Position numbers and translations under genes: made by a program. A stretch of DNA of 64,000 nucleotides from Sulfurivermis fontis (GTDB lineage: Bacteria > Pseudomonadota > Gammaproteobacteria > Thiohalomonadales > Thiohalomonadaceae). The first letter of the stretch is position 1. Each line of letters starts with the position of its first letter. Below are positions 43,235-53,852 of this stretch, piece after piece. The stretch covers positions 1,666,501 through 1,730,500 of the forward strand of contig NZ_AP018724.1 of assembly GCF_004001245.1 (NCBI RefSeq), given 5' to 3'. The notes below the pieces were generated by a model, which saw nothing but the letters and a program-made list of their open reading frames with translations, did no database searches and was not told the origin of the DNA.

Positions 43235-44194
43235 ATGTCTGGCATGAATGCTTTTGATCAACTGCTGATCGGCCAAGCACCAGAGTTCTGTGCCCTCGTC
43301 CGCTCTGCCAAGGTGGTTGCCGCTACCGATGTCACGGCACTGCTACTGGGGGAAAGCGGAACCGGTAAGGAACTGTTCGCCTCGGCCATTCACCAGGAAA
43401 GCCGCCGGGCCCGTGGCCCCTTTGTTGCCATCAACTGCGCTGCACTGCCGGAAGGTCTCGCCGAGTCCGAACTCTTCGGCCACCGCAAAGGAGCATTCAC
43501 CGGTGCCGTACGTGAGCATGCCGGCCGCATCCGTGCCGCCCACGGTGGCACCCTGTTCCTGGATGAAATCGGTGAGCTGCCTCTGGCGGTGCAAGCCAAA
43601 CTGTTGCGTTTCCTCGAGTCCAGCGAACTGCAGCCCGTGGGGAACACGGAAATCGAGCGTGTCGATGTACGCGTTATCGCCGCCACCCATCACGATCTGC
43701 ACCAACGGGTCAAGCAGGGCCTGTTCCGTGCGGACCTGTACTACCGACTCAATGTCGTGCCGCTGGAACTGCCGGCGCTGCGCAACCGCTCCGGTGATAT
43801 CCGCCTGTTGCTCGATCGCCTCACGGCGCGCATTGCGGAGCAACATGGTCTGCAAGCCCCCCGCTACCGCCCGCGCGCCCTCAAGGCGCTGGAACAATAC
43901 CGCTGGCCGGGCAACATCCGTGAATTACGCAATTTTGCCGAGCGCATGGTCGTTCTCCTGCCCGGCGGTGATGTCGATCTGGAAAATCTGCCCCATGAAA
44001 TCCGCCTTCCGCAACTTGAGGAACCGACCCTGTTCACCCTACCTGACAGCGGCATCAATCTCGAGGAGCTGGAACAGCAGATGATCCGCCAGGCGCTGTA
44101 CAAGACCCGTGGCAACCGCAGCCATGCCGCCCGCCTGCTCGGCTTGACGCGCGACACTCTGCTCTACCGGCTAAAGAAATACGCCATCGAATAA
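43235..44194 (+). CDS. Sigma54-dependent enhancer-binding activator without sensor domain
   Basis: A 319-residue PspF-like activator. The AAA+ domain starts almost at the N-terminus, with Walker A LLLGESGTGKELFA (about 43-56), the sigma54-contacting loop GAFTGA (near 95), Walker B TLFLDEIGELPL and an arginine-finger region FRADLYYRLNVVPLELP. A Fis-type helix-turn-helix closes the protein (TRGNRSHAARLLGLTRDTLLYRLKKY). No receiver, GAF or PAS domain is present, so activity is probably set by its own expression (FNR box) or a protein partner. ATG at 43235 has AGGAGCAG upstream. It probably acts at the divergent promoters near 49 kb. Confidence 0.9.
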   Translation: MSGMNAFDQLLIGQAPEFCALVRSAKVVAATDVTALLLGESGTGKELFASAIHQESRRARGPFVAINCAALPEGLAESELFGHRKGAFTGAVREHAGRIRAAHGGTLFLDEIGELPLAVQAKLLRFLESSELQPVGNTEIERVDVRVIAATHHDLHQRVKQGLFRADLYYRLNVVPLELPALRNRSGDIRLLLDRLTARIAEQHGLQAPRYRPRALKALEQYRWPGNIRELRNFAERMVVLLPGGDVDLENLPHEIRLPQLEEPTLFTLPDSGINLEELEQQMIRQALYKTRGNRSHAARLLGLTRDTLLYRLKKYAIE

Positions 44195-44262: not shown

Positions 44263-44736
44263 TCAGTGATGGTGGTGCATCATCTTGCCGTCATCCATGG
44301 GCATGCCCATGCCGGTGCGTACCTCGAAGGAGGCCGGCACACTGCTGCCGTCCTTGAACTTCAGGGTAATGTCCACCTTTTCCCCAGCCTTGAGCGCACG
44401 CTTCGGCTGCATCAGCATCAGATGGTAATCGCCGGGCTTGAATTCGAGCTTGCCATGGGCCGGAATTTCGATGCTGGGCTGATGCACCATGCGGGCCATG
44501 CCGCCGTCCATCACCGTACGGTGCAACTGCACCTCTGCCGCCGCCGCGCTCTCCGCGCCAACCAGCACCAGCGGTGCGGCGCCATGGTTATGCAGCACCA
44601 TGAATGCACCGAGCGCCGGCGCCATCGGCGGCGCCTCGCGCACCCAGGGATTTTCCACCACCGCACCGGATGCAGCCGCCGCGGCCGTATACAATCCCGC
44701 CGCCAGCAGTCCCAGTACCCGCACCATCCTCATCAT
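44263..44736 (-). CDS. Periplasmic copper chaperone, PCu(A)C family
   Basis: A 157-residue secreted protein. A Sec signal (VRVLGLLAAGLYTAAAAAS) precedes the PCu(A)C fold: NPWVREAPPMAPALGAFMVLHNHG, then Met/His-rich LHRTVMDGGMARMVHQP and GDYHLMLMQPKRAL, which match the H(M)X10MX21HXM copper-site pattern. The C-terminus adds MGMPMDDGKMMHHHH, a further metal-binding tail. PCu(A)C proteins deliver Cu(I), for example to oxidases. Here it is the last gene of the receptor-exbB-exbD-tonB operon, which points to a metal role for the operon. Confidence 0.92.
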   Translation of the reverse strand: MMRMVRVLGLLAAGLYTAAAAASGAVVENPWVREAPPMAPALGAFMVLHNHGAAPLVLVGAESAAAAEVQLHRTVMDGGMARMVHQPSIEIPAHGKLEFKPGDYHLMLMQPKRALKAGEKVDITLKFKDGSSVPASFEVRTGMGMPMDDGKMMHHHH

Positions 44737-44770: not shown

Positions 44771-45409
44771 TCAATTCAACTTGAACTCCATGCCGAAACT
44801 CACCCGCATGGGGCAAACCACGTCGCGCGGCGGCGCCGGCAGCGGCAGGGCGGCGCGTACCGCCACCTCCGCCGCCTTGCGCAGGACATCAGGGCCGTCC
44901 TCCACCCGCACATCGCCGATCCGGCCGTCGTCATGCAGCACGAATGATACCTGAATCACTCCCTGCAACCCGCGCCGCCGCGCCGCCCGCGGATAAAACT
45001 TGTGTTCCTCGATATGTGCCAGCAGTGTGCCCAGATAATGCCGCCGCGCCTGCTCCTGCTGCCGGGGGTCACCCGCGGTTTCCACCGGCGCGGGAGCGGA
45101 GTCGGCCACAGGCTCCGGCGCGCTGACCGGCGCGGTCTCCGCCGGAAGTGCCTGCTTGACCGGTCGCGGTTCCGGCGGCCGCTGCTTGGGCGGCTCCGGC
45201 GGCTTGGGACGCGGCTGTACCTCGGGTACCGGAGCCGGCGGCTGCGGCTTGGTGGCGACGCGAAAGCTCAGGCGGGTGACGCCGGCGGCCTGCCGCGCCT
45301 TGCCGTCATCCGCGCTCAGGGCGAAGGCTCCCGGCCAGAACAGGAGCAGGTGCAGCCCCAACGACACCACGGCGGCAACGGTCCAGATAAGACTCTCGCG
45401 CAAGGTCAT
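44771..45409 (-). CDS. tonB: TonB energy-transducing protein
   Basis: A 212-residue protein with one N-terminal membrane helix (LIWTVAAVVSLGLHLLLFWPG), a Pro/Glu/Lys-rich periplasm-spanning region (about 55-110) and a C-terminal TonB domain (YPRAARRRGLQGVIQVSFVLHDD without the break; key YPxxAxxxGxxG pattern). It carries proton-motive energy to the receptor encoded three genes upstream. Its ATG overlaps the exbD stop by 4 bp. A dedicated TonB in the receptor's own operon suggests a specialised uptake route. Confidence 0.9.
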   Translation of the reverse strand: MTLRESLIWTVAAVVSLGLHLLLFWPGAFALSADDGKARQAAGVTRLSFRVATKPQPPAPVPEVQPRPKPPEPPKQRPPEPRPVKQALPAETAPVSAPEPVADSAPAPVETAGDPRQQEQARRHYLGTLLAHIEEHKFYPRAARRRGLQGVIQVSFVLHDDGRIGDVRVEDGPDVLRKAAEVAVRAALPLPAPPRDVVCPMRVSFGMEFKLN

Positions 45410-45804
45410 TGCTCCACGGTCACGATGTCCACGCCCTCGGCCCCAGCCTTGCGCGCGGCATCCAGCACGCCGACGGCCAGACCCAGCGTGGCGGCGCGAT
45501 CACCGCGGATGCGTACCACCTTTTCCCCCTGCTGCTGCAATTCGGAGCTCAGACGCGACTCCAGCTCGCTGATGTCGATGAAGTGATCGCGCACCAGGAT
45601 GCGTCCCTGCGCGTCCAGCACCACCTGTACGTACTCACTGTCGTCAGGGGCACCGCTCTGCGCCACCGGCAGGTCAACCTTGATGTTCTCCTCGCGCACG
45701 AAGTGCGAGGTAAGCATGAAGAACACCAGCAGCAGGAAGACGATGTCGATGAGCGGCGTCAGATTGGGAACGTGGCTCAGGCGGCGGCGGCCCTCAAACT
45801 GCAT
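45406..45804 (-). CDS. exbD: Biopolymer transport protein ExbD
   Basis: A 132-residue proton-channel component with one N-terminal helix. The family segment is NLTPLIDIVFLLLVFFMLTS, with the essential Asp in PLIDIVF (near residue 20), and a periplasmic domain follows. It overlaps exbB by 11 bp and tonB by 4 bp, so translation of the three is coupled. Confidence 0.92.
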   Translation of the reverse strand: MQFEGRRRLSHVPNLTPLIDIVFLLLVFFMLTSHFVREENIKVDLPVAQSGAPDDSEYVQVVLDAQGRILVRDHFIDISELESRLSSELQQQGEKVVRIRGDRAATLGLAVGVLDAARKAGAEGVDIVTVEQ

Positions 45805-46453
45805 GGACGACGCCCTCGCGATGATGCACCGGTTCCGCGCTATCCGTCAGGTCGCAGCCCGGCATCTGCTCCAGCACCACCGAGGCGCAGCTGCGCATGG
45901 CCTGGGCGCGGCGATCCGCCATGCCCTCCAACACATGCAGCATCAGCAGTATCGGGATCGCCACCGCCAGCCCAACGCCGGTGGTCAACATCGCCTCCCA
46001 GATACCGCCGGCCAGCGCCTGGGCATCCACCCGGCCACCGGCCTGCTCGATGACCATGAACGCCTTGATCATGCCGATGATGGTGCCGAACAGGCCAAGC
46101 AGCGGTGCGGTGTTGCCCAGCACACCGAGGGTGCGGAAGCCGCGCTCCATGCGCTGCAACTCCTCCGAGCCGATGCGCGAGGCCACCCGGCCGAGGTCCT
46201 TCACGCCAGCCGCGGCGGCCTCCAGCATGCCGCGGACGATGGCCGCCTCCGGACCACGCAATGATTGCAGCAGCGCAGCGGTTTCATTGCCGCGCAGCGC
46301 ATACAGCAGGCGCCCTTCGAAATCACGCGGCGGACGCCCCAGCAGGGCGAAGCTCAGAAACCGCTCGACGAGCAATGCCAGCGCGACAACGGAATAGGTC
46401 AGCAGTATCCATACCACCGCACCGCCCTTGGCCAGAATCTCTTCAATAGTCAT
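45794..46453 (-). CDS. exbB: Biopolymer transport protein ExbB (MotA/TolQ/ExbB family)
   Basis: A 219-residue three-helix protein. The N-terminal helix is GGAVVWILLTYSVVALALLV; the conserved core includes ERGFRTLGVLGNTAPLLGLFGTIIGM and EAMLTTGVGLAVAIP, typical of the ExbB channel pentamer. ATG at 46453 follows GGAGCAG; the longer frame to 46492 overlaps the receptor's end and is not favoured. The receptor gene ends 35 bp upstream. Confidence 0.92.
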   Translation of the reverse strand: MTIEEILAKGGAVVWILLTYSVVALALLVERFLSFALLGRPPRDFEGRLLYALRGNETAALLQSLRGPEAAIVRGMLEAAAAGVKDLGRVASRIGSEELQRMERGFRTLGVLGNTAPLLGLFGTIIGMIKAFMVIEQAGGRVDAQALAGGIWEAMLTTGVGLAVAIPILLMLHVLEGMADRRAQAMRSCASVVLEQMPGCDLTDSAEPVHHREGVVHAV

Positions 46454-46488
46454 GGCTGCTCCGGTTCTTTGCCAATCTGGGTCTGCCT

Positions 46489-48732
46489 TCAAAACTGCAC
46501 GGACAAACCGGCGGTCCAGACACGCCCCGGGTTGACCACGATGGAGATATCCTCGGCATCGAACACCCCGTCCTTGTTACCGTCGCTGCTGCCCCGTGCG
46601 GTGTTGTAGTAGTGCTCGTCGAAGACGTTGTCGATACGCACGAAGAATGACGCCTTGTTGGCAGCGCCGAAACGGGTATCGTAGCGCAGCAGGGCGTTAA
46701 ACACCGTGCGCGCACCGATCTCGATGGTATTCGGCTCGTCGACATAGTAACTGGAGTAGGCATCCATTTCACCAGTCACCGTCCAGCCCCGCGCCGGCCG
46801 ATAGTCCAGCGACAGATTCAGGTGATGCTGCGGCGTGCGCGGGATGACGTTGCCGGTAAGATTCATGGACTGGAGGCAGTACTGCGTAGCCGGGTTGAGT
46901 ATGCTGCAATCCGCCACGTAGGTGCCGTAACGATTGCCCAGCAGCAGGTTGAAGTTGTCGTAACGGGTAAACTCCGACAGCAGATAGGTATAGGCGACGT
47001 TGAGCGCTACCTTCCTTTCCCGATCGCTGTTCATCGCCAGCTCGAAGCCGCGCGAGCGCATGCCGCCGATGTTCTGGTACTGCTCCAACTCGCCGCTCAC
47101 CGGCAGACTGTACTGCCCCGCCGTGGACATGATGTAGTCGTCGCGCTCCAGCTGGAAAATGGCGGCATCGAAATCCCAGTCCACGCCGCCCCAGTTGCCC
47201 CTGCCGCGCAGCCCCAGCTCCATGTTCAGCGACTGTTCCGGGCGCAGGTCGGGGTTGCTGGCGGTCTTGCCGGTGGGCGAGATGGTGCCGGCGAACAACT
47301 GGCTGATGGACGGTGCGCGGAATCCGGTGGACACATTGCCGTAGATATCCACCGTGTCGGCCAGGGCGTAGTTACCACCCAGGCGCCATGAGGTGACATT
47401 GAAGCTCTTGTCCAGTTTGAGCGCGGCGAGATAGTCCTCGTAGTCGAGGGCCAAATGGTCGTAGCGGCCATTGACGGTGAAGGTGAAACGATCTGCCGGC
47501 TGGAACTTGATCTCGCCATAAACGGCGTGCACCTGCTCGCGGGTAAAGTCGTCGCCGACGACTGTTCCGGCGTAGCGGATGGGGTTGAGCGGCGATGGAC
47601 TGGGGCTGGACTTGAAGTCCACCAGATACTTAGTGTAATTGCGGTAGGTGTTGTCGCGCAGGTCGAGTGCGGCCATCCAGGCCATACCGGTGCCGGCACT
47701 GCGGTACTCGCTCTTCACGCCCCGCTGCACCTGCTTGTAATCGTTGCCGGTGGTGTAGGCATTCACATCGGTTACGATCTGGGGCGGCGTATCCGCTGTG
47801 TAGTTCTGCGGCGCGGTGACGAAGCGGGTGTGGTCGTTGTACTGATAGGCGTTCAGAAGCAGATTCTTGCCGCCGTCCAGATCCTTGGCATAGGTCAGGT
47901 AGTACTTGCCCAGATCGACGTCATACATACGGGCATAATCGCGTCCTTCGTAGCTCTGCGGATCGGTCTCGGCCTGCGTCACGCCCTCAACAGAACCGTG
48001 ACTGTCCTTCTTGCGGTTGGAGGCCTCGAAGCCGAAGGTCAGATCGCTGCTGTCGTCGACATACCATTGCAGCTTACCGTCCACATAGTCCGCACGGTAC
48101 TCCGACTGGAACCAGTAGCCGTCGCTCTCGCGCCGTGACACCTGGACGTGGGCATTCATGTTGTCGCTGGCATAACCGGCCCGTGCCAGGTACTTCTGGT
48201 AGTTGAAACTGCCGCGCTCTGCCTCCAGGCGGTAGCCGGCCAGTTTGGCGCCGCGCTTGGTGGTTATGATGACGGCACCGGCCAGCGCATCATCGCCGAA
48301 CAGATAGGACGCACCGCCCTTCACCACCTTGATGGACTCGATGTTGTCCAGGTCGATATTCACGGCGCCGGTACGCTCGAACACCGGCACGCCGTCGATG
48401 ACCACGGCAACGCCGGGCTTCTCGCCCATATAGCGCTGGTTTTCCACGCCGCGGATATGAATCTTCAGGTTGCCGCCGCTGGTGAACTCCGAGGTGATGC
48501 CGGGGACGGACTGCAGGACCTGTTGCAGGTTTTCCACATGGGACTCGTCCACCTTCTCGCCGGAAATGGTCCTGGTGTTGGACGGCTCGTCACGCTTCTG
48601 CTCAAAGCGGTCGTCAATGGTGGTCGACTCGACATAGATTACCCCAAGATTATCCGCCGCCGACACGCCGGACAGCGCCAGAACACTACCCAGCGCCCCC
48701 GCCAGGACAGGAAAGCCGCAACCACGTCTCAT
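46489..48732 (-). CDS. TonB-dependent outer-membrane receptor
   Basis: A 747-residue receptor. A signal peptide (cleavage near VSA-AD) is followed by a probable TonB box GVIYVES, a plug domain (about 45-165; LQQVLQSVPGITSEF, IHIRGVENQRY, IESIKVVKGGASYLFGDDAL) and a 22-strand barrel ending in the outer-membrane C-terminal Phe (GLSVQF). Two cysteines in a predicted external loop (ADCSILN, QYCLQS) may form a disulfide. It is first in an operon with its own ExbB-ExbD-TonB and a copper chaperone. Substrate unknown; a metal complex is favoured by neighbours. A sigma54 promoter and a dyad lie upstream. Confidence 0.9.
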   Translation of the reverse strand: MRRGCGFPVLAGALGSVLALSGVSAADNLGVIYVESTTIDDRFEQKRDEPSNTRTISGEKVDESHVENLQQVLQSVPGITSEFTSGGNLKIHIRGVENQRYMGEKPGVAVVIDGVPVFERTGAVNIDLDNIESIKVVKGGASYLFGDDALAGAVIITTKRGAKLAGYRLEAERGSFNYQKYLARAGYASDNMNAHVQVSRRESDGYWFQSEYRADYVDGKLQWYVDDSSDLTFGFEASNRKKDSHGSVEGVTQAETDPQSYEGRDYARMYDVDLGKYYLTYAKDLDGGKNLLLNAYQYNDHTRFVTAPQNYTADTPPQIVTDVNAYTTGNDYKQVQRGVKSEYRSAGTGMAWMAALDLRDNTYRNYTKYLVDFKSSPSPSPLNPIRYAGTVVGDDFTREQVHAVYGEIKFQPADRFTFTVNGRYDHLALDYEDYLAALKLDKSFNVTSWRLGGNYALADTVDIYGNVSTGFRAPSISQLFAGTISPTGKTASNPDLRPEQSLNMELGLRGRGNWGGVDWDFDAAIFQLERDDYIMSTAGQYSLPVSGELEQYQNIGGMRSRGFELAMNSDRERKVALNVAYTYLLSEFTRYDNFNLLLGNRYGTYVADCSILNPATQYCLQSMNLTGNVIPRTPQHHLNLSLDYRPARGWTVTGEMDAYSSYYVDEPNTIEIGARTVFNALLRYDTRFGAANKASFFVRIDNVFDEHYYNTARGSSDGNKDGVFDAEDISIVVNPGRVWTAGLSVQF

Positions 48733-48873: not shown

Positions 48874-48889
48874 TGCATGATTCATGCCC
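48874..48889 (-). promoter_or_regulatory. Sigma54 promoter of the receptor operon
   Basis: Minus strand GGGCATG-AATC-ATGCA compared with TGGCAYR-N4-TTGCW: invariant GG and GC have the exact 10-bp spacing, with two mismatches elsewhere. Predicted start near 48862, about 130 bp before the start codon. Confidence 0.68.
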
Positions 48890-48945
48890 GCCGCCAAGTG
48901 ATTGTTTCCACACTCCATGTGGTTTCAACATCACCACGGGATCAC

Positions 48946-48975
48946 GGTAAATGCCGCACTGCCGCGGCATATGAC
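48946..48975 (-). promoter_or_regulatory. 30-bp dyad 1, putative enhancer site for the receptor promoter
   Basis: GGTAAATGCC, 10 bp, GGCATATGAC: arms match 7 of 10 as inverted repeats and share the layout of dyad 2. The near edge is 57 bp from the GG of the minus-strand sigma54 promoter. Confidence 0.62.
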
Positions 48976-49035
48976 ACAGCGGCAGATTCCACCGCCCGTC
49001 GCCGCACCGCGAACTACGTCCGCCGGCTGCGCTGT

Positions 49036-49065
49036 GTCAAATGCCACAGGATCGCGGCATATGAC
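49036..49065 (+). promoter_or_regulatory. 30-bp dyad 2, putative enhancer site for the reductase operon
   Basis: GTCAAATGCC, 10 bp, GGCATATGAC: arms match 9 of 10 as inverted repeats. The right arm is identical to that of dyad 1, 90 bp away. The near edge is 59 bp from the GG of the plus-strand sigma54 promoter, mirroring dyad 1. Confidence 0.65.
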
Positions 49066-49123
49066 CTGGCGCCCACCCGCTGCGCCAGCGCCGCGAGTGC
49101 ATAGGTTCAATGGCTTATACCGT

Positions 49124-49139
49124 TGGCATGCATCGTGCT
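49124..49139 (+). promoter_or_regulatory. Sigma54 promoter of the reductase operon
   Basis: TGGCATG-CATC-GTGCT compared with TGGCAYR-N4-TTGCW: one mismatch, with invariant GG and GC 10 bp apart. Predicted start near 49150, about 47 bp before the first gene of the operon. Confidence 0.72.
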
Positions 49140-49196: not shown

Positions 49197-50144
49197 ATGA
49201 GAACAACGACAACCCTGTTAATGACACTATTACTCGCCTGCGGTGCACCTCTGACGGCAGCGCCCCTGTGGTGGTCGGAAACCAACCCCCATGCCGAACA
49301 CGGCGACGCGCGCCATTCCCACGGTGGTCCGGTAGAGATACGCCGTGGTGTCTATTACAAGAATCTTTGGCTGCGCAGCGGCGATGGGCCGGCAAATTCT
49401 GCCTATGTGGATCAGCTCATGCCCGGACGGCTGCTGTTGCAGAACGTCAAGGGCGATGTCGTGGAAATGTCCGGCGGCAACCTGCACGGTTCCTTCGGCG
49501 TCAACTTCGCCATGCCGGACGAGGGGTTCTACAACCTGTACCTGATCTCCGAATTCGTCAGTGACGGCGTGCGTCATATCGGCGTCGCCAAGTCCGAGGT
49601 GCTGAAACACAGCTGCCGAGAGGGCCATGATCACATCAAACCGCTGATTGCGCCGCGCACCCTCGACACCCTGCCGCTGGAGATCGTGCGCGAACGCCAG
49701 ATGGCGGAGAACTTCCATACCCTGCTTGGCTACGGCGACACCGTCACCTTCCAGATACGGCGTCAAGGCCAGCCGCTGGCCGACGCCGAGGTCACCTTTC
49801 ACACCGCGCAGGGCTGGCACAAGACCGTACGCAGCGACGCCGCCGGCCACGCCAGCTTCATGCTGGTGCGCGACTACTATCCGGACTGGCATGAGTTCGA
49901 GCGCCGCTACCGCCAAGACTACATGGTCAGCGCCGCTTACAGCGTCACCGAGGACGGCATGCCCACCCGCTATGTCGCCACGTACAACGGCAGTTACTAT
50001 CCGTCGACGCGCGACTATCGCTCCTACGCCTACGGTCTGCTGCTGGGCACCTTCGCCCTGACCTTCACCGGCGTCGCCGTCTACCTGTACCGTCGCCGCC
50101 GTCAGCGTCGCTTCCACGAGGTCCGCTTCGATGAAAAGAATTAG
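49197..50144 (+). CDS. His-rich periplasmic protein with C-terminal membrane anchor (DUF4198-like)
   Basis: A 315-residue protein. A signal peptide (TTLLMTLLLACGAPLTA) is followed by a His-rich mature N-terminus (NPHAEHGDARHSHGG) and a second metal-suggestive HSCREGHDH near residue 145. A beta-sandwich-like domain (GQPLADAEVTFHTAQGWHK, SDAAGHASFML) resembles DUF4198/NikK-type metal-uptake proteins. One C-terminal helix (YGLLLGTFALTFTGVAVYLY) and a basic tail anchor it. First gene of the sigma54-driven operon, overlapping the next by 14 bp. Function is inferred as periplasmic ligand or metal handling; the family call is tentative. Confidence 0.7.
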   Translation: MRTTTTLLMTLLLACGAPLTAAPLWWSETNPHAEHGDARHSHGGPVEIRRGVYYKNLWLRSGDGPANSAYVDQLMPGRLLLQNVKGDVVEMSGGNLHGSFGVNFAMPDEGFYNLYLISEFVSDGVRHIGVAKSEVLKHSCREGHDHIKPLIAPRTLDTLPLEIVRERQMAENFHTLLGYGDTVTFQIRRQGQPLADAEVTFHTAQGWHKTVRSDAAGHASFMLVRDYYPDWHEFERRYRQDYMVSAAYSVTEDGMPTRYVATYNGSYYPSTRDYRSYAYGLLLGTFALTFTGVAVYLYRRRRQRRFHEVRFDEKN

Positions 50145-51117
50145 GGACGCCGTCAACAGCGTCGACCTGCGGCGCTTCCGCTTCTGGCTGCAACTGTTCT
50201 TCTTCGTGCTGCTGGTCTATGGCGGCTATCTGGCCGTCAATCTGGGTCAGTACCTGCCCACCTTCGCCTGCGGCTTCAATCAGGAGGGCCGCGGCGGCAT
50301 CTGCTATCTGCTGCCCTTACAGCACCAGTTGGCGATGTCCTGGAAAACCTTGTTCAGTTGGGCCGGGCTGATGGTGTTGCAGGGATTTCTGTTCTTCGCC
50401 CTGTGGTTCTTCGTGCTCAATAAGGGTTGGTGCGGCTATGTCTGCCCGCTGGGCACCCTCCAGGATTGGATCACCAGCCTGCGCGCCCGTCTCGGCATCC
50501 GTTACTCGCGTTATACCGAAGGCCAGTTCCGCCGCCTCAGCCTGATCAAGTATCTGCTGCTGGCCCTGATGATTCTGATTCCGCTCGGCATCGGCGGTGC
50601 GCTGCTGCCCCACGACATGGGCACGCCGTTCTGCGACATCTGTCCCGGGCGCATGATCATTCCCATGTTCACCGGTGACTTTTCCCAGCTCACCATCGAC
50701 TTCTCCACCAAGACCACCATGGTGATGACTGCGCTGGGCATGCTGGTCACCGGCCTGTTTCTGGCCGGCGCCTTTTTCAAGAAACGGTTCTTCTGCTTCT
50801 TCTGCCCCATGAGCGCCCTGCACTACCTGCTGTCCAAGCCGGCACTGCTCAGGCTGAAGAAGGACGGCGCCAAGTGCACCCGCTGCGGCGACTGCTATCG
50901 GGTGTGCGACATGGAAATCAGGGAAATCGCCGATGAAGTGAAGGATCCGCGCATCATGCAGGATGACTGCATCATGTGCCTCAAGTGCGTGGCCCATTGC
51001 CCGGAACCCGGCGCACTCAAGGCCACCTTTGCCGGCATCCCCATTTTCGAATCCACTGAATACGGCTTCATCAAGCGCATGAACAAGGGACACCAACATG
51101 AACACAACGCCCAGTGA
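50131..51117 (+). CDS. NapH-like membrane polyferredoxin
   Basis: A 328-residue inner-membrane electron-transfer protein with about four to five helices. CxxxCP-type cysteine pairs are at 101/105 (CGYVCP), 168/171 (CDICP) and 222/225 (CFFCP). Two [4Fe-4S] motifs lie at the C-terminal cytoplasmic end (Cys249/252/255/259 and 280/283/286/290). NapH/NosR-type proteins move electrons between quinol and Fe-S partners. Here no nap or nos genes are adjacent; its neighbours are the double-cubane-like protein and activase. It is a plausible electron entry point for them. Start overlaps the upstream gene and its end overlaps the next by 20 bp. Confidence 0.85.
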   Translation: MKRIRDAVNSVDLRRFRFWLQLFFFVLLVYGGYLAVNLGQYLPTFACGFNQEGRGGICYLLPLQHQLAMSWKTLFSWAGLMVLQGFLFFALWFFVLNKGWCGYVCPLGTLQDWITSLRARLGIRYSRYTEGQFRRLSLIKYLLLALMILIPLGIGGALLPHDMGTPFCDICPGRMIIPMFTGDFSQLTIDFSTKTTMVMTALGMLVTGLFLAGAFFKKRFFCFFCPMSALHYLLSKPALLRLKKDGAKCTRCGDCYRVCDMEIREIADEVKDPRIMQDDCIMCLKCVAHCPEPGALKATFAGIPIFESTEYGFIKRMNKGHQHEHNAQ

Positions 51118-52372
51118 GGCCCTGGCCTACAACCGTTCACGCCAGGCGCGGGAGGCGGAAACCCTGCTTGATCGCATACAGGATGGCTTCCCCGACAATC
51201 CGCAGGCGATGCGCTATTTCTACGACCTGTTCCGCAACGTCTATTGTCATGGCGAGCCAGTCAAGCACGAGGGCACGCTGGTCGGTACCACCTGCATCCA
51301 TGCCCCGGAGGAACTGATTTACGCCTTCGGTGCCACGCCGGTACGGCTATGCAACGGCTCCTATCACTACGACCAGATCGGTGCCGACTTCATGCCGGCC
51401 AAGTCCTGCCCTCTGGTGAAGGCCACACTGGGTTCCCTGCATGCCAAGGCGGCGGTGCCCAATACCGCGGCGCTGGAGTTGATCGTCAACCCCACCACCT
51501 GCGATCAGAAGACCAAGGCGAGCGCAATGATCGCGGCCATGGGCTACCAGGTGCATGACCTGGAGCTGCCGCCGGCCAAGGAAAGCGAGGAGGCACGGCT
51601 GTACTGGCAGCGCTCCGTACGCCGCCTGGCCGTGCGCCTGCGCGAACTGACCGGGCGCAAACTGACGCGCAACAATCTGAAGCAGGCCATGGCGCGCACC
51701 GCCCGCGCCCAGGCCGCTTTCCGAGCCCTGCATCAACTGCGCAAATCCGCACCGGCACTGTTCCTCGGCAAGGATGCCTTCCTGGTGACCAACGCCTATT
51801 TCTTCGATGATCTCGACCGCTGGACCGCTGCGGTGGAGCAGCTCAACGCCGAGCTTCTGCAACGGCAACAGGCGGGATTCCAGGCGGCGCAGAAACGCGC
51901 GCCGCGCATCCTGTTCACCGGTTCGCCGCCCATCTTCCCCAACCTGAAGCTACCGCTCCTCATCGAGGAAGCGGGCGGCGTGGTGGTGGCCGACGAGACC
52001 TGCTCCGCCAACCGCATGCTCTACGACATGACGGCGGTGGACGAATGGCTGCTCAACGATATGGTGGACGGCCTGGCCGATCGCTATCTCAAGCCCTGCA
52101 CCTGCCCGATCTTCACCCGCAACGACGATCGCCAGCGCCGCCTGCTGCAACTGGCGTCTGACTTCAGCGTCGACGGCGTGGTGTATCAGGCCTTCGCCGG
52201 CTGCCAGGTCTACGAAATGGAGCACCGCAGCATCGCCGACGTGCTCGCCGCGCAGGACATTCCCATGCTGTACGTGGAGACCGACTACAGCCCCGACGAC
52301 ATGGGCCAGTTGTCCACCCGCATCGAGGCGTTTCTGGAGTCCATCAAAACCCGCAAGAGGAGCAAGCAATGA
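51098..52372 (+). CDS. 2-hydroxyacyl-CoA dehydratase D-component family / double-cubane-cluster-like protein
   Basis: A 424-residue cytosolic Fe-S protein of the HgdB/BcrC/FldB fold. Single-chain organisation with its own activase is like the double-cubane cluster protein (DCCP) branch, which reduces small molecules at an [Fe8S9] cluster in an ATP-dependent way. Nine cysteines are present: 50, 66 (GTTCIHAPEE), 85 (RLCNGSY), 104 (KSCPLVKA), 135 (PTTCDQK), 302 (DETCSANRM), 334 and 336 (KPCTCP), 369 (FAGCQVYEME). This is enough for a double cubane. No CoA-transferase or second dehydratase subunit is nearby, so fermentation is unlikely. Natural substrate unknown. Confidence 0.85.
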   Translation: MNTTPSEALAYNRSRQAREAETLLDRIQDGFPDNPQAMRYFYDLFRNVYCHGEPVKHEGTLVGTTCIHAPEELIYAFGATPVRLCNGSYHYDQIGADFMPAKSCPLVKATLGSLHAKAAVPNTAALELIVNPTTCDQKTKASAMIAAMGYQVHDLELPPAKESEEARLYWQRSVRRLAVRLRELTGRKLTRNNLKQAMARTARAQAAFRALHQLRKSAPALFLGKDAFLVTNAYFFDDLDRWTAAVEQLNAELLQRQQAGFQAAQKRAPRILFTGSPPIFPNLKLPLLIEEAGGVVVADETCSANRMLYDMTAVDEWLLNDMVDGLADRYLKPCTCPIFTRNDDRQRRLLQLASDFSVDGVVYQAFAGCQVYEMEHRSIADVLAAQDIPMLYVETDYSPDDMGQLSTRIEAFLESIKTRKRSKQ

Positions 52373-53169
52373 GTTATTTCGCCGGTATCGACATCGGCTC
52401 CACCGCCATCAAGGCCGCCGTGGTCGATGACGCAGGCGCACTGGTCGGCACCCATATCGCTCCTACCGGAAGTTCCTTTCACAAAAACGCCATGGAAACC
52501 TTCGAAACGCTGCTGGCCCGGCACGGCATCACCCGCGACGCGGTAAAGTTCATCACCGCCACCGGCTACGGCCGCAAACTGTTCAAAGAGGCGGACGACT
52601 CCATCAGCGAGATCACCGCCAACGCCATAGGTGCCTGGGAGGCAGGCAAGGCCTTCGGCGGCGTGCGCACCATCATCAACATCGGCGGCCAGGACTCCAA
52701 GGCGATCCAAATCGACGTCAACGGCAACGTCAGCAACTTTGCCATGAACGACAAGTGCGCCGCCGGCACCGGCCGTTTCCTCGATGTGGCCGCGCGCAAC
52801 CTGGAGATCGACCTGGAAGAACTGGGCGACTACCACTTCGGTGGCAACGGCACACCGCTCACCATCAACAGCACCTGCGCGGTATTCGCCGAGTCGGAGA
52901 TCATCGGCCTGCTGGCCAAGGGCCACGGCAAGGAAGAGATCGTCGCCGGCATCCACTACTCCATCGCCCGCCGCACCGTGCGCTTGGCCAAGCGCGTCGG
53001 CATCGAGGACCGTGTCTACTTCGACGGCGGCCCGGCGCTGAACAAGGGCCTGGTGGCGGCGCTCCAGGACGAACTGGGCCGCGAACTGGTGATTCCGCAG
53101 GAGCCGCAGACCACCACCGCCTTCGGTGCCGCGATGCTGGCGCGCAGCCAGTTTCTGGCCGAGGCGTGA
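52369..53169 (+). CDS. ATP-dependent activase, BadF/BadG/BcrA/BcrD family
   Basis: A 266-residue ASKHA-fold ATPase that feeds single low-potential electrons into its partner. ATP motifs are GIDIGSTAIKAAVVD (about 7-20), NIGGQDSKAI (104-113) and FDGGPALNKGL. The inter-subunit [4Fe-4S] cluster would use Cys130 (NDKCAAGTGRFL) and Cys170 (NSTCAVFAESE), the 40-residue spacing seen in HgdC/DCCP reductase. Its ATG overlaps the upstream gene's stop by 4 bp and its TGA overlaps the next ATG by 1 bp, so expression with the partner is tightly coupled. Confidence 0.93.
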   Translation: MSYFAGIDIGSTAIKAAVVDDAGALVGTHIAPTGSSFHKNAMETFETLLARHGITRDAVKFITATGYGRKLFKEADDSISEITANAIGAWEAGKAFGGVRTIINIGGQDSKAIQIDVNGNVSNFAMNDKCAAGTGRFLDVAARNLEIDLEELGDYHFGGNGTPLTINSTCAVFAESEIIGLLAKGHGKEEIVAGIHYSIARRTVRLAKRVGIEDRVYFDGGPALNKGLVAALQDELGRELVIPQEPQTTTAFGAAMLARSQFLAEA

Positions 53170-53852
53170 TGGAACCCATCGAGCAGACCATCGTCACCCT
53201 GCCCCTGGCCCTGGCCCTCGGTCTGGTGTTCGGTTTCAGCGCCTGCACCATCAGTTGCCTGCCCTATCTCGGCCCGGTGTTCCTCGCCAGCGAGGGCGGC
53301 ATCCGCCAGTCCTGGCGCACCGTGCTGCCCTTCTCCCTGGGGCGCCTGTGCAGCTATGGCGGCCTCGGGCTGCTGGCGGGCTATGTGGGGCAATATCTGG
53401 GCGACGATGCGGGACTCGGCGGCATGCGCTGGGTGCTTGGCAGTGCGGCGATCATGGTCGGCCTCGCCCTGTTGCTGCGCCGGACGCGGCGTACATCATG
53501 CAGCGTTCCGGTCGCCACGGAGCAGCCGCTGCAACGCTTCGATCCGGCGGCACCGCGCACCCTGATGCCCGGTGGACTGTTCCTGCTCGGTGCCAGCATG
53601 GCCCTCACCCCCTGCGCCCCCCTCGGCACGGTGCTGTTCTCCGCCGCCCTCACCGCCAGCGCCGCGCATGGCCTGGCCCTCGGCTTGTCCTTCGGACTCG
53701 GTGCCATTGCCCTCCCCGCGCTGATCTTCGGCATCGGCGTGGCCTACATCGGCGCCCGCCTGCGCGAACAATTGCGCCACTGGAGCCACGGCGTACAGCA
53801 CCTCAGCGCGCTGCTCCTCATCGCAGTCGGCGGGGTGAATCTGTTCGGCTGA
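53169..53852 (+). CDS. TauE/CcdA-like six-helix membrane protein
   Basis: A 227-residue inner-membrane protein with two repeated three-helix halves. Each half has a Cys-Pro motif near a helix: GFSACTISCLPYLGPVFL at the N-terminus and LTPCAPLGTVLFSAAL in the middle, resembling CcdA/DsbD-type reductant carriers and UreH/TauE-SafE proteins. It could pass electrons or thiol reductant across the membrane, or export a product. Last gene of the operon, followed by a strong terminator. Confidence 0.72.
   Translation: MEPIEQTIVTLPLALALGLVFGFSACTISCLPYLGPVFLASEGGIRQSWRTVLPFSLGRLCSYGGLGLLAGYVGQYLGDDAGLGGMRWVLGSAAIMVGLALLLRRTRRTSCSVPVATEQPLQRFDPAAPRTLMPGGLFLLGASMALTPCAPLGTVLFSAALTASAAHGLALGLSFGLGAIALPALIFGIGVAYIGARLREQLRHWSHGVQHLSALLLIAVGGVNLFG

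Follow-up and report, generated by a model that had tools for sequence, protein, structure and literature searches.

Divergent operons and the intergenic region

The analysed window is a 64,000-nucleotide stretch of Sulfurivermis fontis DNA, in which two divergent operons flank an intergenic region with sigma-54 promoters on both strands and palindromic repeats between them (Table 1; positions are those of the window unless a contig or locus is named). The minus-strand operon combines a TonB-dependent receptor with its own ExbB-ExbD-TonB genes and a copper chaperone gene; TIGR01778 is absent from the matches of the receptor, which reached no copper-receptor model. The plus-strand operon encodes, among others, a double-cubane-cluster reductase, solved relatives of which are available (7yyl, 6eno). 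Frequently accompanied by a TonB receptor, the gene cluster at 49197-53852 is also present in Proteobacteria, Nitrospirae and Bacteroidetes MAGs.

Table 1. Positions of the promoters, operators and genes discussed in the text.
Feature	Position	Strand	Remarks
Candidate activator	43235-44194	plus	AAA+ sigma-54 interaction domain with GAFTGA; Fis-type helix-turn-helix
Periplasmic copper chaperone PCu(A)C	44263-44736	minus	PF04314, 8.3e-39
TonB	44771-45409	minus	domain search
ExbD	45406-45804	minus	domain search
ExbB	45794-46492	minus	domain search
TonB-dependent receptor	46489-48732	minus	first gene of minus promoter
FNR-type box TTGACAAATATCAA	48825-48838		~+31 from predicted minus start
Sigma-54 promoter GGGCATGAATCATGCA	48874-48889	minus	serves TonB-receptor operon; predicted transcription start ~48863
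Operator S1 CACGGTAAATGCCGCA	48943-48958		near site, minus promoter; window matrix rank 4
Operator S2 CGCGGCATATGACACA	48963-48978		far site, minus promoter; 20 bp from S1; matrix rank 1
Operator S3 TGTGTCAAATGCCACA	49033-49048		far site, plus promoter; matrix rank 2
Operator S4 CGCGGCATATGACCTG	49053-49068		near site, plus promoter; 20 bp from S3; matrix rank 3
Sigma-54 promoter TGGCATGCATCGTGCT	49124-49139	plus	serves DUF4198-reductase operon; predicted start ~49150
DUF4198-like secreted protein	49197-50144	plus	first gene of plus promoter; His-rich N-terminus; match weak, below cut-off
NapH-like membrane ferredoxin	50131-51117	plus	profile searches
Double-cubane-cluster reductase	51098-52372	plus	NF040772, 362.1 bits, above cut-off 350
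BadF/BcrA-type ATPase	52369-53169	plus	presumed activator of reductase
DsbD_2/TauE-like membrane protein	53166-53852	plus	

Divergent promoters of the GG-N10-GC type, a classical form of sigma-54 promoter, had been proposed in an earlier note on this DNA and were found again at the same positions when the sequence was re-read, both near the sigma-54 consensus. By inspection, the two elements occupy -24/-12 within a TGGCAY...TTGCW context; at the eight further positions scored against the consensus TGGCACG-N4-TTGCW, the minus promoter agrees at six and the plus promoter at seven. RpoN is encoded in the genome, which contains, in addition to rpoN, a weak second match to the sigma-54 DNA-binding domain (G000:C1:21476-21928).

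The repeats at 48946-48975 and 49036-49065 had been described as a single 30-bp dyad per promoter. Their positions, the identical right arms (GGCATATGAC) and the distances of 57 and 59 bp to the promoter 16-mers all stood up to re-reading; the left dyad, however, is imperfect, its arms agreeing at 7/10 positions as opposed to 9/10 in the right one. The claim that this layout exceeds chance is also supported, as the 3.25-Mb genome contains just two copies of GGCATATGAC, both of them in the intergenic region under study. By contrast, the 30-bp dyad had to be abandoned as the unit because each arm is itself palindromic (10.5/16 self-matches versus 4.2 in shuffles) and the spacing varies at other loci (20, 21 or 22 bp). 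Dimers of Fis-type helix-turn-helix proteins usually bind one 16-bp palindrome of this kind, and each reported dyad is therefore better described as two operators, that is, two per promoter and four in total (S1-S4), with the consensus TGYGGCATATGCCRCA. The 10-bp arms form the cores of these palindromes; the operator core is GNCATATGNC, with the strongest constraint on the inner G..A..T..C.

Own-genome scans were pattern searches. The pattern suggested in the earlier note, GTCAWATGCC-N10-GGCATATGAC, matches the right repeat and misses the left one; GKCAWWTGMC-N10-GKCAWWTGMC with at most one mismatch has three matches in the genome, namely, the two pairs of the window and one before a TonB copper receptor. 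With an operator matrix derived from 32 training sites, mostly from other genera, including two promoters of the same genus (L060 and L129) and none from the window, the four operators score 21.6, 20.6, 17.5 and 14.2 and occupy ranks 1-4 in the 64-kb window, the fifth-best position reaching 11.6.

The corresponding loci of three congeners (L012, L014 and L042) carry sigma-54-like sites in both directions and four operator sites arranged as two pairs with 20-22 bp spacing, and these promoters and operators have been retained while the flanking DNA diverged. GG-N10-GC is found at the place equivalent to the minus promoter in all three loci; the plus promoter is preserved in L014 and L042 and exists in a poorer version in L012, where the near operator on the plus side is located 91 bp from the promoter, compared to the usual ~62. 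Some of these sites are weak, among them the left pair of L014 and one site of L012. An FNR-type box, TTGAT-N4-ATCAA with 0-1 mismatch, is present at +30 to +34 relative to the sigma-54 start on the minus side in the window and in 3/3 congeners; on the plus side, such a box lies near the promoter in all three congeners and is absent from the window. The box suggests a second, oxygen-linked layer of control at the minus promoter, where it could either halt elongation or, at low oxygen, drive a second promoter.

The candidate activator and recurrence of the arrangement

The protein encoded at 43235, which the earlier note had named as the nearest candidate regulator, combines the features of bacterial enhancer-binding proteins, with a Sigma54_activat AAA+ domain (PF00158, 1.1e-69), a GAFTGA motif visible in the translation and a Fis helix-turn-helix (PF02954, 1.7e-15); the domain search found no N-terminal sensor domain. 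None of the 25 listed NCBIfam models for named enhancer-binding families (NtrC, NifA, PspF, NorR, ZraR, PrdR and others) reaches its cut-off, and there are no specific conserved Cys, His or Met residues among the orthologues that would represent dedicated metal ligands. The protein is 90-93% identical in the three congeners, and orthologues occur in 30/274 sampled genomes of the class and in the majority of genomes of the family, with a near-invariant recognition helix (GNRSxAARLLGLTRDTLLYRLKKY). Directly 5' of the activator gene and on the same strand, 22 of the 36 neighbourhoods encode a DsbD_2 membrane protein with the motif SLHCVGMCGG; in other genomes, copper-receptor homologues, SCO and PCuAC are among the proteins encoded around the activator gene. 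The conserved synteny, the co-localization with the sites in many genomes and the near-invariant helix strengthen the case for this protein as the likely binder.

The enhancer-type arrangement, in which paired palindromic operators lie at a constant distance 5' of the promoter, also recurs beyond the genus, across Gammaproteobacteria. A search for operator pairs in 20 genomes of the order returned 36 distinct matches, ten of which have a strong promoter of the sigma-54 type at a distance of 58-67 bp (0.05 expected). A composite model (paired operator, gap and sigma-54 promoter) gave 18 matches in 1.31 Mb of related loci, inside which part of the training set lies, and 0 on reversed sequence; with an allowed range of 50-72 bp, all 18 have gaps of 60-65 bp. 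Matches unused in training are those in L054, L093, L166, L173 and L176, the plus site of L014 and the ExbB site of L094; the L166 match may be false, being weak and facing into the terminal part of the activator gene.

In a class-wide operator search, a sigma-54 promoter at 51-65 bp was found in nine genomes (G000, G053, G141, G164, G176, G190, G209, G230 and G286), and all nine contain the activator, including G176, G190 and G286, which at first seemed to be devoid of it and carry a 54-57% homologue 2-4 kb from the site. A strict pair (20 or 21 bp spacing, at most one mismatch) is present in only 8 of the 30 activator-bearing genomes; thus, the sites vary or are missed. The class-level co-occurrence of activator and operator pairs is modest (Fisher p=0.004; p=0.012 without S. 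fontis itself) because pairs with a single mismatch also arise by chance, and the association becomes clean only once a sigma-54 promoter is demanded as well.

Copper-linked targets and alternative explanations

The third operator pair of the S. fontis genome (L089) is located 64 bp from TGGCACTGTGCTTGCT and precedes a receptor that matches the copper-receptor model TIGR01778 above the cut-off, aligns with OprC over its length and retains the CxxxM and HxM copper ligands of OprC (PMC8610252). In other genera, the full arrangement is found before ExbB-ExbD-TonB-PCuAC genes beside the activator gene (L091, L093, L094 and L095) and before copper-receptor homologues (L094, L173, L176, L185 and L201); the TonB receptor/DUF4198/double-cubane reductase cluster is another recurring target. 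SCO1/SenC-PCuAC operons (L110, L120, L126 and L192) are likewise preceded by paired operators, some of which lack a good promoter at the typical distance. Given that the OprC-type receptor in the same genome is preceded by the same operators, the most likely role of the 43235 activator is to control a copper-acquisition regulon that extends beyond this intergenic region. We infer copper as the signal from the company of genes, and their uptake character indicates that the regulon is probably switched on at low copper. Two further observations concern these loci. An operator pair with one mismatch (L109:1501-1531) precedes a gene for a NosR-like FMN-binding protein but lacks a good sigma-54 promoter at the typical distance, and the gene for a PAS-type sigma-54 activator (L089:453-1358) has cytochrome bd genes and an OprC-type receptor gene in its vicinity.

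The copper role of the receptor and the reductase cluster of the window is unproven, and the FNR-type box is conserved, both of which would fit a genuine regulon that responds to a different signal, such as another metal, the redox state or respiration. Such a signal appears rather unlikely to us, however, as the regulon is repeatedly found in the company of OprC-type receptors, PCuAC and SCO. The operators might instead be bound by a different enhancer-binding protein, and one candidate is the PAS-type paralogue at C1:2630455, near the copper receptor of S. fontis and within a few kb of the third operator pair; moreover, in L128 and L130, an operator pair is placed between the divergently arranged genes for a PAS-type homologue and an OprC-like receptor. 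Nevertheless, the recognition helix of the paralogue is quite different (GDKRALADQLGLSERTLYRKLREL), and in L091, L093, L094, L095, L173 and L176, the full arrangement is close to the 43235 orthologue, making the paralogue an improbable binder.

Binding by NifA deserves consideration because nifA is present in the genome (C1:1948323-1949822; 707.8 bits, above the cut-off), so that the organism may fix nitrogen, and because S3 fits the NifA pattern TGT-N10-ACA. Yet only one of the six operators of the genome conforms to this pattern, constraint is strongest at the inner G..A..T..C and not at the outer TGT/ACA, the downstream genes are not nif genes, and in other genera, the sites co-occur with the 43235 orthologue. 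Hence, it is very improbable that the operators are NifA sites. Finally, although GG-N10-GC by itself is common, the conservation, genome-wide rarity, fixed spacing and recurrence across genera leave virtually no room for chance palindromes combined with chance promoter matches.

A predicted sigma-54 switch for copper acquisition

We consider it likely, on the basis of the sequence comparisons, that the 43235 activator binds the four operators and, together with RpoN, activates both divergent operons within a copper-acquisition regulon. The intergenic region would then represent a bidirectional sigma-54 control unit, in which 43235 dimers occupy the paired operators S1/S2 and S3/S4 and the paired dimers allow their AAA+ domains to assemble into a hexamer next to each promoter. 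The centre of the near operator is located ~63-65 bp 5' of each -24 GG, and the activator would contact RNA polymerase-sigma54 over a short DNA loop, using ATP for opening. Since the two units face outwards, one activator could raise both operons together, with the minus promoter driving TonB receptor-ExbB-ExbD-TonB-PCuAC and the plus promoter driving DUF4198-NapH-like-double-cubane reductase-ATPase-DsbD_2. Because the 43235 protein is devoid of a sensor domain, our guess is that a partner senses copper on its behalf, perhaps the DsbD_2 membrane protein encoded 5' of the activator gene in many genomes.

In its general design, the predicted system resembles sigma-54 promoters of the NtrC/NifA/PspF type, with GG-N10-GC, upstream tandem palindromic operators and an AAA+ activator with GAFTGA and a Fis-type helix-turn-helix, but differs from them in the operator core, the presence of two mirror-image units in one region and the copper-linked targets. 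Like PspF-type sensor-less enhancer-binding proteins, the 43235 protein consists only of the AAA+ and helix-turn-helix domains, with no N-terminal domain; however, its PspF scores of 272.8 and 240.4 bits are a long way short of the respective cut-offs of 443.6 and 529 bits, and no psp genes were seen near its gene. Control of TonB-dependent copper receptors is known from Pseudomonas aeruginosa oprC, which is repressed by the MerR-type protein CueR (PMC6907878), and from crtA, for which the upstream ORF CruR exerts post-transcriptional control (PMC9426467, PMC12914433), whereas here a sigma-54 activator is predicted. In the thiocyanate dehydrogenase cluster of Thioalkalivibrio, a sigma-54 Fis-family regulator adjoins putative copper-uptake genes, but that regulator belongs to a two-component system with a histidine kinase and has other target genes (PMC5744179). 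Within the open-access literature searched (copper receptors, copper starvation, PCuAC and OprC), there was no precedent for a sigma-54 activator of copper uptake or acquisition, which points to a so far undescribed sigma-54 switch for copper acquisition built on a known promoter type.

Little is known about how copper import is turned on and off in bacteria; the activator, together with the operator consensus and the listed target promoters, makes this control directly testable. Whether this family of sensor-less sigma-54 activators is a widespread main regulator of copper acquisition in Gammaproteobacteria, covering OprC-type receptors, a dedicated TonB system, chaperones and, here, the double-cubane reductase operon, is in our estimation an even bet. 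If so, the double-cubane reductase cluster would gain a regulatory context, and its operon would have a role in obtaining copper.
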